Part shown: one piece after another, positions 537-17,837 of the stretch
How the letters are laid out: every line of letters starts with the position of its first letter
How positions within the stretch are numbered: position 1 is the stretch's first letter
Assembly (NCBI GenBank): GCA_902519465.1
Contig: CABYJW010000007.1
Coordinates: 1 to 39,938 of the forward strand
Length of the DNA: 39,938 nt
Source of the DNA: an uncultured Pelagibacteraceae bacterium
Lineage (GTDB): Bacteria > Pseudomonadota > Alphaproteobacteria > Pelagibacterales > Pelagibacteraceae
Direction of reading: 5' to 3'
Made by a program: the position numbers and the translations under genes
Notes under the pieces: model-generated
What the model saw: only the letters and a program-made list of their open reading frames with translations
Database searches by the model: none
Told to the model about the DNA's origin: nothing

Positions 537-1256
537 ATGGCGGGTCATTCACATTGGGCAGGTATAAAACATAAAAAAGGGAGACAAGACAAATTAAGAT
601 CAAAAATATTTTCAAAAATCTCTAGAGAAATAACAGTTGCTGCTAAACTTGGATCAAAAGATCCAGATACAAACCACAGATTGCGAGCAGCAATCGAAAC
701 AGCCAAGGACGCAAACATGCCTAAAGAAAATATTACCAGAGCTATAAGCAAATCTGAAAACCAAAAAGGTGTAAATTTTTATAATTTAAGATATGAGGGT
801 TTCGGACCAAATAATATTGCATTAATTATTGAGACTCTTACAGATAATAAAAATAGAACAGCAGGAAATGTAAGAAAAAATTTACAAAAATTTGGAGGAA
901 GCCTCGCAAGCGATGGATCTACAGCTCACTTTTTTGATAATTTTGGAGTTATTCAATTTTCAAGAGATGGAATATCTGACGAAAAAGCTTTAGATTACGC
1001 AGCTACGTTAGGCGCAAAAGATTGTTTTAGTTATAAAGATTTTCACGAAATTATCACTATCAAAGAAGATTTTTACAGAGTAAAAAATGAGAGTGGAAAG
1101 TTAATAAAAAAATTTGATTATTCAGGTATAGAGTGGAGGCCTAAAAACAAAGTAAGTTTAAAAAAAGATGATGAAAAAAAATTGATAAATCTTTTAGAAA
1201 TATTAGAGGAAGATGATGATATCCAAAAAATTTTTCACAACTGTAACTTAATTTAA
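537..1256 (+). CDS. yebC: YebC/PmpR family probable transcriptional/translational regulator
   Basis: MAGHSHWAGIKHKKGRQDKLRSKIFSKISREI is the family signature N-terminus; 239 aa. Confidence 0.96.
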   Translation: MAGHSHWAGIKHKKGRQDKLRSKIFSKISREITVAAKLGSKDPDTNHRLRAAIETAKDANMPKENITRAISKSENQKGVNFYNLRYEGFGPNNIALIIETLTDNKNRTAGNVRKNLQKFGGSLASDGSTAHFFDNFGVIQFSRDGISDEKALDYAATLGAKDCFSYKDFHEIITIKEDFYRVKNESGKLIKKFDYSGIEWRPKNKVSLKKDDEKKLINLLEILEEDDDIQKIFHNCNLI

Positions 1257-1263
1257 AATATAA

Positions 1264-1755
1264 ATGAGAATAATTGGTATAGATCCTGGTCTAAGTGGTG
1301 GAATTGCAATTCTTGATGATTTAAAAATATTTGATATCTATGATATGCCTATAATGTCCGAGGGTAAAAAAAACAAAAACCAATTAAATAGTGCACAATT
1401 AGTTAATATTATAAGAAAAAATTTAATCCCGAACGGAGATACTTTTTTAATAGTAGAGCAGGTAAGTGCAATGCCCGGTCAAGGAGTTACAAGCATGTTT
1501 AACTTTGGTCAAACTTTTGGCTCAATAAAGGGAATTTGTGCAGCATTAAATCTTCCTATTTTCTTCGTAAGACCAGCTAAATGGAAAAAACATTTTGATC
1601 TAATTAATTCTTCTAAAGATGCCAGTAGAACAAAAGTTATAGAAATGTATCCCTCAATATCACCAAGATTGAGCAAAAAAAAAGATGTAAATAAAGCCGA
1701 CGCAATTTTAATTGCTAGATATTTCAGAGATTGTCGAGCACAATTTAATCAGTAA
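1264..1755 (+). CDS. ruvC: RuvC-fold Holliday junction resolvase, MOC1/phage-like subtype rather than canonical RuvC
   Basis: 163 aa; GIDPGLSGG, IVEQV, WKKHF, SKDASR, KKKDVNKADAILIARY; candidate acidic catalytic residues D7, E65, D141, D146; located in the ruvC position after yebC. Confidence 0.85.
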   Translation: MRIIGIDPGLSGGIAILDDLKIFDIYDMPIMSEGKKNKNQLNSAQLVNIIRKNLIPNGDTFLIVEQVSAMPGQGVTSMFNFGQTFGSIKGICAALNLPIFFVRPAKWKKHFDLINSSKDASRTKVIEMYPSISPRLSKKKDVNKADAILIARYFRDCRAQFNQ

Positions 1756-1820: not shown

Positions 1821-2501
1821 ATGGAGACAGAAATCGCAAATCAAGTTGTAGGCTTAGGTGGAGCAAATGATTTTTCACTTTGGCAACTTTTCTTAAGAGC
1901 TGATTTTGTAGTTAAAGCAGTTATATTACTTTTAATCGTAAGCTCGATTTTTTCGTGGGCCCTAATATATGACAAAGTAAGATTATTTAGAAGAATTGAT
2001 CAATCTACAAAATCATTTGAGGATAAATTTTGGAAATCGAAATCAGCCGAGTCATTTTACAAAGGCCTACCGATGAAGTCAGAAGATCCTATGACAATTA
2101 TTTTTAAAAATGCAATGTCAGAACTAATAAAAACAAAATCAAAATCTTCATCTGTACAAAGTGCGAGAGTAGAAAGAGTTTTAGAAGTTTCCATAGACAA
2201 CCAGCTTAAAACTATCGAAAAAAATTTTACTTATTTAGCAACAATCGGCTCCACAGCTCCTTTCATCGGTTTATTTGGAACTGTCTGGGGAATTATGAAT
2301 TCTTTTCAATCAATTGCGATTTCAAGAAATACAAGTTTAGCAATTGTAGCACCTGGTATTGCTGAAGCGTTATTTGCAACTGCTCTTGGCCTTCTTGCTG
2401 CTATCCCTGCAGTGATAGCTTATAATAAGTTTAACAGTGACTCACAAAGATATTTTGCAAGGGTAGATAATTTTTCAAAAAGATTTTTATCAATAATTTA
2501 A
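1821..2501 (+). CDS. tolQ: Tol-Pal system proton channel subunit TolQ
   Basis: ATIGSTAPFIGLFGTVWGIMNSF motif; start of tolQRAB-pal order. Confidence 0.96.
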   Translation: METEIANQVVGLGGANDFSLWQLFLRADFVVKAVILLLIVSSIFSWALIYDKVRLFRRIDQSTKSFEDKFWKSKSAESFYKGLPMKSEDPMTIIFKNAMSELIKTKSKSSSVQSARVERVLEVSIDNQLKTIEKNFTYLATIGSTAPFIGLFGTVWGIMNSFQSIAISRNTSLAIVAPGIAEALFATALGLLAAIPAVIAYNKFNSDSQRYFARVDNFSKRFLSII

Positions 2502-2505
2502 TTAA

Positions 2506-2922
2506 ATGGCATTTACAATTAATCGCTCAAAAAAGAAAGAACCAATGAGCGAAATAAATGTTACGCCTTTTGTAGATGTAATGTTAGTTCTTTTGATTAT
2601 TTTTATGGTGACCGCTCCATTATTAACAGTTGGTGTACAAGTTGATCTACCCGAGTCAGCTGCAGACTCTTTACCTGACGATCAAGAACCACTCACAATA
2701 ACAATTAATTCAAAGGGTGAAATATTTATTCAAGAACACCAAGTTACTTTTAAAAAAGTAGTTCCCAAATTATTGGCCATCTCTAAAAATAGAACAGACA
2801 CTAGAATTTATGTAAGGGGTGACAAAACAATAAATTACGGAAGAGTTTTAGAGGTAATGGGAAGATTATCTGGTGCGGGATTCTCAAAAGTAGCACTTAT
2901 ATCTGAACCCTATAAAAATTGA
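2506..2922 (+). CDS. tolR: Tol-Pal system subunit TolR (ExbD family)
   Basis: MSEINVTPFVDVMLVLLIIFMVTAPLL signature. Confidence 0.96.
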   Translation: MAFTINRSKKKEPMSEINVTPFVDVMLVLLIIFMVTAPLLTVGVQVDLPESAADSLPDDQEPLTITINSKGEIFIQEHQVTFKKVVPKLLAISKNRTDTRIYVRGDKTINYGRVLEVMGRLSGAGFSKVALISEPYKN

Positions 2923-16202: not shown

Positions 16203-17009
16203 TCAAGCAATCCAATTTTTTAATTTATCTTTATTATTGATAATATACTCAGGATAACTTGAGTCTATTTCAATCTTTTTAATTTTATATCCCCGATCTA
16301 ACACATCTTCACCTTGATTAATTTTAAATTCAATATTTTTCTCACTAACAATTTCCGCTTTATTAAATTCGCCATGAGCAAAAGACTTTATTTTTTTTGA
16401 TATATTTTTTACATCTTGAAGATATGCGAAATGCCAACCACCTTTATCAATAATTTGAAGATTTTTTTGTTTATCAATTCTCCAAAAAGGATACTTTTTA
16501 AATTTCAAATTTCTAAGCCACTGGGGTGATTTTAAATTTTTTTTGAGACAAATTTTTGAACCATGCCAATTATTTTCATTTAAGTTTAAGAGGTTAAGCT
16601 TGTACATAAACATTTTTTGTGAAAAAACTGCGTATTTATTTTTATCAAAAATTTTTAACTTATTTAAATCTGGTATTTCATCGACATCAGATAAGATGAT
16701 TAGATCGTTATCCTGGGATTTATTTAAACCCTTCATAATAGAATTTCTTTGATGCTGCTCCACAAGAGATTCTCCTCCAGTATGAGGTCTTTTTATGTTG
16801 TCGGGAGTATCGTCAACTTCTATGTAAATAATTTTGTTTTGAAACTTTTTATATTTATTTTTATCAAAATGCAGTTTTCTACCTTGACCTTGATGGTTAA
16901 CTGTTGATTCGACTATTACAAAAAAATCAACATACTCATCCAGTATATTAAATCTTAAATCAGCGATATGATCTTCGTTAAAATATTGAAAACAGTCAAA
17001 AATTGCCAT
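16203..17009 (-). CDS. GT17-family glycosyltransferase (MGAT3 / beta-1,4-mannosyl-glycoprotein GlcNAc-transferase-like)
   Basis: MAIFDCFQYFNEDHIADLRFNILDEYVDFFVIVESTVNHQGQGRKLHF, LIILSDVDEIPDLN, GGWHFAYLQD resemble GT17 (Glyco_transf_17). Confidence 0.85.
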   Translation of the reverse strand: MAIFDCFQYFNEDHIADLRFNILDEYVDFFVIVESTVNHQGQGRKLHFDKNKYKKFQNKIIYIEVDDTPDNIKRPHTGGESLVEQHQRNSIMKGLNKSQDNDLIILSDVDEIPDLNKLKIFDKNKYAVFSQKMFMYKLNLLNLNENNWHGSKICLKKNLKSPQWLRNLKFKKYPFWRIDKQKNLQIIDKGGWHFAYLQDVKNISKKIKSFAHGEFNKAEIVSEKNIEFKINQGEDVLDRGYKIKKIEIDSSYPEYIINNKDKLKNWIA

Positions 17010-17015
17010 ATTTCT

Positions 17016-17120
17016 TTAATCAAAATATTTGTCTTTAATTTTCATATAAAATTTAGAGTGAGGTAAATTTAATGATTTAGATATTTTATTTAAAAATTTT
17101 ATTTGTCCAGATATGAGCAT
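17016..17120 (-). CDS. Possible 34-aa small ORF between the oxygenase-like gene and the GT17 gene
   Basis: Manual translation MLISGQIKFLNKISKSLNLPHSKFYMKIKDKYFD*; co-directional with both neighbours and fills the gap; could also be a gene remnant. Confidence 0.3.
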   Translation of the reverse strand: MLISGQIKFLNKISKSLNLPHSKFYMKIKDKYFD

Positions 17121-17129
17121 TAAATTTTT

Positions 17130-17837
17130 TCATTTTCTTGTAAAAGTTGCTATTCCAATTTTTTTCCCCTCAATAACAGATGATGAACAATGTAAATGTG
17201 ATCTATCAAAAATTAGCATCGATCCAACTTCCCACTCATAAATTATCTCTACTTCTAAACCTTTTAAATTATTTATATCCTCATGCTTTAAGTACTTTTC
17301 ATGGATTTTTTTGTCAAACGGTTTATCCCCATATAATTTTAAATGCTCTGCTGATCTTTTATTCTGGCCGTAACTTAAGTTTTTTTTCTTTAATTCTTCA
17401 GGATCTTGAGTAAAAGAGGTTGATCCACCATAATACCTATTTTTGAAAATTACAGTACTTCCTACTGGAGTAAGAGGAATTAAACTTTGTTTATATATTT
17501 GATTTTTTATTTCAAAACCCGCATCTACGTGAAGACCTATTGGAGCGTAACTTTCTTGAATAAGACCATAAATATCTTTGCCATTTTCATCTTTGAGGTT
17601 ATCCATTTTAAAATCTCCAATTTCTTTTCCAAGTCTCTCACAAAATATTTTTTCTAAACCATCATCATAACCTTGAAGCCATCTTTTTTTAATAACATTT
17701 TGTTTTTTATTATGAGTTGTAACTGGTAGCTTCTCATACAAATTCATAAATTCCTGAATTTCTTTTTTGCTATAAATGTTTTTTATTACCTTGGGAGCTG
17801 TCTCAGTTTTTTTTATTTTTTCTATTTTTTCATCCAT
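17130..17837 (-). CDS. Putative 2OG-Fe(II) dioxygenase-like protein
   Basis: GLHVDAG (HxD) and DRSHLHCSSSVIEGKKIGIATF (distal His then basic residue) arranged as in double-stranded beta-helix oxygenases; no closer family recognised. Confidence 0.55.
   Translation of the reverse strand: MDEKIEKIKKTETAPKVIKNIYSKKEIQEFMNLYEKLPVTTHNKKQNVIKKRWLQGYDDGLEKIFCERLGKEIGDFKMDNLKDENGKDIYGLIQESYAPIGLHVDAGFEIKNQIYKQSLIPLTPVGSTVIFKNRYYGGSTSFTQDPEELKKKNLSYGQNKRSAEHLKLYGDKPFDKKIHEKYLKHEDINNLKGLEVEIIYEWEVGSMLIFDRSHLHCSSSVIEGKKIGIATFTRK

Follow-up and report, generated by a model that had tools for sequence, protein, structure and literature searches.

Genomic organization of the locus

The window analyzed here is a 39,938-nucleotide stretch of DNA from a SAR11 bacterium (family Pelagibacteraceae, order Pelagibacterales). 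It carries an open reading frame of 163 amino acids (1264-1755, forward strand) that opens with ATG, ends with a stop codon at 1753-1755 and lies 7 bp behind the end of yebC (1256) and 65 bp ahead of tolQ (Table 1). Across the SAR11 loci, the gene order reads phosphoesterase-yebC-resolvase-(ybgC, in some genera)-tolQ-tolR. In canonical alphaproteobacterial loci, yebC lies upstream of ruvC (28 of the 30 checked), and E. coli K-12 maintains the same yebC-ruvC order. Taken together, these arrangements indicate that the SAR11 gene occupies the ruvC slot, with ruvA and ruvB missing behind it. Position after yebC, one criterion for a canonical RuvC, is thus met by the window gene. No phage genes were seen near it, either in the window's open reading frame map or in the SAR11 loci read.

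Between the resolvase gene and tolQ, the window's genus lacks ruvA, ruvB and ybgC alike. Some SAR11 genera keep ybgC at this junction (L025, L027-L030, L049, L159), and others, the window's genus among them, have lost it. Elsewhere in the window (16203-17837), a glycosyltransferase-like frame and a 2OG-oxygenase-like frame lie beside an ABC transporter pair; the segment resembles a small variable island, as judged from the reading frames only.

Table 1. Coordinates of the genes and active-site codons discussed in the text
Feature	Position	Strand	Evidence
yebC (TACO1/YebC family)	537..1256	+	Pfam PF01709 3e-43, PF20772 1e-29
MOC1/phage-type (PHROG 1770) RuvC-fold Holliday-junction resolvase gene, in the ruvC slot (cleavage inferred)	1264..1755	+	profile, PDB, tree and model evidence
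D7 codon, first catalytic acid (= MOC1 D115)	1282..1284	+	invariant in all rows
E65 codon, second catalytic acid (= MOC1 E174)	1456..1458	+	invariant in all rows
K118 codon (= MOC1 K229)	1615..1617	+	K in every SAR11 and plant row and in 63/64 others
D141 codon, KKD motif	1684..1686	+	D in 11/11 SAR11 rows and 53/64 other rows
D146 codon, final catalytic acid (= MOC1 E257)	1699..1701	+	D throughout SAR11; every other row has D or E
tolQ, start of the tol-pal operon flanking the slot	1821..2501	+	Pfam MotA_ExbB 6e-38; open reading frame map
tolR	2506..2922	+	open reading frame map, tblastn synteny

Family assignment and predicted structure

An earlier note, made from the sequence alone, had claimed that the ruvC position holds a MOC1/phage-type resolvase. 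This claim held in profile searches, PDB search, structure comparison, phylogeny and locus comparison. In the profile search that the note had suggested as a check, no RuvC match was returned: the Pfam scan gave nothing over cut-off, PF02075 included, and the NCBIfam scan gave no ruvC match. The PHROGs search, by comparison, matched PHROG 1770, annotated as Holliday junction resolvase, at E = 2.2e-36, essentially over full length (protein residues 1-154, profile positions 4-147 of 158), and PHROG 159 (RuvC-like) at 1e-11. Phage relatives share 39-40% identity with the protein (Salmonella phage epsilon15, Planktothrix phage PaV-LD and Stenotrophomonas phage SOVA965), and viral-contig relatives reach 48% identity to the SAR11 resolvase.

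Searching the PDB by sequence retrieved nine MOC1 sequences, from 9.7e-18 (NtMOC1) to 3.5e-10, and the best RuvC, that of D. radiodurans, reached only E = 0.012; a SAR11 profile gave the same picture as the single sequence. Since nothing but MOC1 matches closely in the PDB, this ranking cannot separate plant from phage relatives.

The AlphaFold2 model, built with 56 alignment rows, none of them from named phage records, is of high confidence (pLDDT 94.0, pTM 0.90). Its top 12 Foldseek matches in the PDB are all MOC1 (best E = 2.7e-12), superposing with TM scores of 0.79-0.88 at 1.8-2.3 A (best match, TM 0.88 at 1.9 A) and aligning over full length at 24-31% identity. RuvC structures, including that of a Lactococcus phage, rank after MOC1 (TM 0.48-0.70, 4.2 A or more). 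The fold is thus closer to MOC1 than to RuvC.

Active-site conservation

Residue conservation was assessed in an alignment of 11 SAR11 rows, plant MOC1 rows and 64 other non-plant rows (phages, prophages and the slot protein of genome G301, described below). MOC1 numbering and residue roles follow PMC11183143, and equivalences were taken from the alignment, in agreement with residue spacings. D7, E65, D141 and D146, the acidic positions named in the earlier note, all lie where it had placed them, and together with K118 they are invariant in the 11 SAR11 sequences. K118 corresponds to MOC1 K229, a proposed transition-state stabilizer (PMC11183143).

Two features of plant MOC1, the D117 of its DPD motif and the active-site histidine H253, are absent from the SAR11 protein in this alignment. 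The counterpart of D117 is G9 in SAR11, and glycine also stands there in every phage row; the counterpart of H253, position 142, is V, S, A, N or T in SAR11. Alanine mutation of H253 weakened MOC1. Given the invariance of D7, E65, K118 and D146, the metal-binding core is intact and two plant features are missing.

Phylogeny and origin

We reconstructed a tree of 80 proteins that included 11 SAR11 rows together with RuvC, phage, prophage and plant MOC1 sequences. RuvC separates from the MOC1/phage branch at 100/100, and the window protein falls outside RuvC and among phage rows, so that the earlier note's assignment also held in the tree it had proposed. All SAR11 rows form one clade (100/99) nested among phage rows, whose sister is a prophage protein (L058; 96/93); by eye, the neighboring genes of this protein were recognized as phage-type, coding for a Rha-like protein and a cytosine methylase. 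The best reading of this topology, inferred rather than demonstrated, is that the SAR11 gene was acquired from a phage or prophage.

The earlier note had further implied that the gene might bear on the origin of plastid MOC1, which would be so if it and plant MOC1 derive from a recent common source. In favor of such a source, MOC1 is the best PDB match, and a joint SAR11-plant clade, though disfavored, survives the AU test (p = 0.084). Against it, the PDB ranking is uninformative for the reason given above, and in the best tree plant MOC1 (NtMOC1, 8kfr) is not sister to SAR11: it groups with PaV-LD and three viral-contig proteins (97/90; L309, L067, L073, L317), with SAR11 grouping with the prophage protein, and both fall inside the phage radiation. 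We therefore consider a recent common source very unlikely. A direct SAR11-plastid link was rejected as the best reading, with the AU test not decisive, and this implication of the earlier note was not supported. The grouping of plant MOC1 with PaV-LD-like proteins hints that the plastid enzyme came from a cyanophage-related source.

Distribution of the resolvase and loss of RuvABC

To place the window gene in its lineage, we surveyed genomes of the order. Matches were found in 56 of 60 Pelagibacteraceae genomes, representing 13 of the 14 genera of the family, and in the order sample in 87 of 94 genomes of the same family (f1). The seven f1 genomes lacking a match are all drafts, with 20-70 contigs each; the gene was present in every closed genome of the family that was searched. 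It is single copy in nearly all genomes and occupies one conserved slot in the SAR11 loci read; in a contig scan for relatives, all of the 80 loci kept were SAR11. Same-genus relatives are 74-99% identical to the window protein, and congener comparisons gave dN of 0.05-0.10 with dS above 1 or saturated (dN/dS of ~0.02-0.05), which indicates a maintained gene. In one relative, the match (residues 52-156; G045:C44:72195-72509) lies inside an 813-aa open frame, and two stops interrupt the match in another (G175:C10:14998-15436); either could reflect fusion, assembly error or decay.

Canonical RuvC (PF02075) exceeded the cut-off in none of 147 genomes of the order, and the same model did so in 353 of 385 genomes across the class. 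A second, canonical ruvC, which the earlier note had named as grounds for refutation, was likewise not found in the window's own assembly; this assembly is 63% complete, so the absences rest on relatives. RuvA was absent from all 88 genomes of the order examined, and RuvB (TIGR00635) exceeded its cut-off in none of 58, the best score being 32.6 bits against the 299 needed. The canonical-RuvC criterion of RuvA and RuvB partners in the genome thus failed. The Pfam model PF05496 matched every genome, but only weakly (~30 bits); the lengths of the matched frames fit other AAA+ proteins (ClpX, DnaX, Lon, FtsH), and these candidates were rejected as RuvB on the decision of the TIGR00635 equivalog model. 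The loss of ruvA and ruvB, the SAR11-wide extent of the trait and the different slot resolvases of other lineages (below) go beyond what the earlier note had claimed.

One closed genome (G009) was additionally searched in overlapping stretches with E. coli query proteins. RecG has a near-full-length homologue there (34% identical, 6e-122) and YqgF a homologue at 3e-13. RuvA and RuvC queries found no match in this genome, RuvB only weak, partial AAA-like pieces, and RadA only a short, weak C-terminal piece. The counts across the order show the loss of RuvABC; for RecG and YqgF, presence is shown in this closed genome.

Could the gene nevertheless be a normal RuvC that evolved so fast that the models no longer reach it? 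The shared ruvC locus, the shared fold superfamily and the GIDPG motif speak for this reading. Against it, PF02075 is silent in the window's genome and below cut-off in its 147 relatives, yet recovers RuvC in most of the class; MOC1 is much nearer in both sequence and fold; and the tree splits RuvC off with full support. Drift from RuvC is all but excluded.

Resolvase-type genes in the ruvC slot of other lineages

In the sister SAR11 family (f2), we found neither a RuvC over the PF02075 cut-off nor a MOC1-type match with query P0001. Its yebC-tolQ slot instead holds a protein of 123-127 aa that matches PF24608 (PDDEXK_15) at 4e-8 (L160-L171, L151-L158) and phrog_244, RusA-like Holliday junction resolvase, at 1.9e-20. 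This protein is present in 40 of 45 f2 genomes and in none of 43 f1 genomes. Compared with the PDB, its structural model (pLDDT 83) returned archaeal Hjc/Hje junction resolvases in all of the top 12 places, although with modest significance (E = 0.013, TM 0.46). Relatives occur on at least 111 viral contigs, those listed being 43-55% identical. In the absence of activity data, we infer from these profile and fold matches that it is a resolvase-type protein of the PD-(D/E)xK class, unrelated to the MOC1 type.

This bears on the possibility that the window gene is phage or mobile cargo merely residing in the slot and not the resolvase of the cell. Its nearest relatives outside SAR11 are indeed phage and prophage proteins. 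However, the gene's presence in nearly all genera of the family at one conserved slot, its strong purifying selection and the lack of phage genes nearby all argue against cargo, as does the sister family, which has another resolvase there and not a gap. We regard the cargo reading as very unlikely.

Beyond SAR11, 27 other genomes of the class without PF02075 were examined, and yebC was findable in 20. The next gene after yebC is a junction-resolvase-type frame in 12 of these 20, giving five RuvC-less alphaproteobacterial families with such a gene in the slot (four PD-(D/E)xK, one diverged MOC1-type). Profile scans were run on one member per family or subgroup, and the rest were assigned by near-identical sequence. 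In three families (f25, f32, f142), slot frames of 97-122 aa between yebC and tolQ (L211, L213, L216-L219, L222, L223) match PHROG 2002, Holliday junction resolvase, at 1e-8 to 2.5e-10, and that of f142 has viral-contig homologues 76-78% identical. In f51, a 168-aa protein directly after yebC (L208-L210) matches PDDEXK_15 at 2.7e-22. A tilS-like gene, rather than tolQ, follows the f51 protein, so the tol operon lies elsewhere. In f119 (G301), a small-genome lineage, the slot protein (L204 5347-6305) matches PHROG 1770 at 7.7e-22, and its gene precedes ybgC-tolQ-tolR-tolA-tolB-pal. In the remaining eight genomes, no resolvase-like frame was found behind yebC, and one contig ends there (L212, L214, L215, L221, L224-L227).

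The MOC1-type gene of f119 is likely an independent acquisition. A joint clade of SAR11 and G301 is not rejected by the AU test (p = 0.063), but the best trees separate the two by 29.8 log units, and we set aside a single MOC1-type origin as disfavored. A YebC tree, meant to count how often RuvC was lost independently, placed the RuvC-keeping lineages to one side of a branch with weak support (86/87), and AT-rich lineages may be drawn together in it.

The slot contents of these RuvC-less lineages show that several of them filled the slot, drawing on at least three PHROG families. We read this as repeated receipt by the ruvC slot of phage-type genes that are resolvase-type by profile; their activity is inferred.

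A further possibility is that the SAR11 protein keeps the fold as a weak or non-cleaving junction binder, like TEFM, with junctions resolved by YqgF or by RecG and replication. The non-conservation of MOC1 D117 and H253 and the presence of YqgF in the closed genome favor it. On the other hand, D7, E65, K118 and D146 are fully conserved, the phage members all lack D117 as well, and the filling of the slot by other nuclease families elsewhere argues for cleavage. This reading, too, appears very unlikely.

Proposed function and comparison with known systems

We conclude that the window gene is very likely (probability about 0.87) the only recognizable dedicated Holliday-junction resolvase of SAR11: a nuclease with the RuvC fold and two-metal-ion chemistry, from the MOC1/phage (PHROG 1770) branch, which took the place of RuvC at its site between yebC and the tol operon, with RuvA and RuvB lost too, and which acts in the manner of MOC1 and phage resolvases. 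Its family, fold, active-site residues, position, near-universal single copy and purifying selection are established; junction cleavage, dimerization, partnership with RecG and acquisition from a phage or prophage are inferred. Among the points that count against this conclusion are the unmatched D117 and H253 and the presence of YqgF, another RuvC-fold protein, which has sometimes been proposed as a resolvase.

As RuvA and RuvB are lost, the SAR11 resolvase most likely operates as MOC1 and phage resolvases do. It would bind the four-way junction directly, as a dimer and probably with loose sequence preference, and would introduce paired symmetric nicks on opposite strands by two-metal catalysis without a RuvAB scaffold. 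Branch migration would be left to RecG.

Plant chloroplast MOC1 (Zea mays, Nicotiana tabacum; PDB 6is8, 6kvo, 8kfv) has its fold and a D/E/K/acid active site in common with the SAR11 protein and, as far as is known, acts without RuvAB in chloroplasts. It differs in having DPD (D117) and H253 where the SAR11 protein has DPG and V/S/A/N/T, and the SAR11 gene, a bacterial chromosomal gene, occupies the ruvC locus and falls in a different part of the tree. PHROG 1770 phage resolvases (epsilon15, PaV-LD, SOVA965) have in common with SAR11 the GIDPG motif, the AMP.QGV.S/AMPGQG stretch and a KKD..(D/E)A-type C-terminal motif; those are phage genes, whereas that of SAR11 is a conserved, vertically inherited cellular gene. 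With bacterial RuvC (PF02075; E. coli, T. thermophilus, D. radiodurans), the SAR11 protein shares the superfamily fold, the position after yebC and the presumed reaction, but it has no profile match, a TM score of only 0.48-0.70 and neither RuvA nor RuvB as a partner in the genome.

Non-orthologous replacement of ruvC has a documented precedent in its displacement by recU (PMC4224334). RecU-bearing Firmicutes generally retain RuvAB. In SAR11, by contrast, RuvAB is absent, and the replacement is phage-type and sits inside the ruvC slot itself. What is new here is that RuvC was replaced at its own site while RuvAB was lost, and that this is repeated with different resolvases; the family and the displacement of ruvC were already known. 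In the literature searched, with subscription journals mostly outside coverage, we found no earlier description of a MOC1-type resolvase in the ruvC position of SAR11, nor any of exchange in this slot.

Implications for recombination in SAR11

RuvABC is the textbook junction-resolving machine of bacteria, and SAR11 are among the commonest and most recombining bacteria of the ocean. A 2025 study reported that RecBCD, the RecF pathway and MutSL are missing from SAR11 and linked the promiscuous recombination of these bacteria to the absences (PMC12374537). Neither "ruv" nor "Holliday" occurs in its main text, and the resolution step is therefore an unexamined part of the SAR11 recombination picture.

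A bolder reading, towards which the evidence tilts only slightly, is that small-genome Alphaproteobacteria recurrently exchange the occupant of their ruvC slot: RuvABC was lost, and phage-type resolvases of at least three families (MOC1-type PHROG 1770, PDDEXK_15/PHROG 244 and PHROG 2002) entered behind yebC in different lineages. SAR11 would be left with a minimal set of RecG and a stand-alone phage-type resolvase, which may contribute to its promiscuous recombination.

Collectively, a whole order of very abundant bacteria is without RuvABC, and the slot reveals the probable substitute, a self-sufficient phage-type nuclease. SAR11 is in this respect a bacterial parallel to the plastid, which has a resolvase of the same branch. 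Unrelated resolvases have repeatedly filled this one slot, and this natural experiment offers a pointer to the function of small nuclease families whose activity is uncertain. It also suggests that cells can give up the RuvAB motor more readily than the resolvase.
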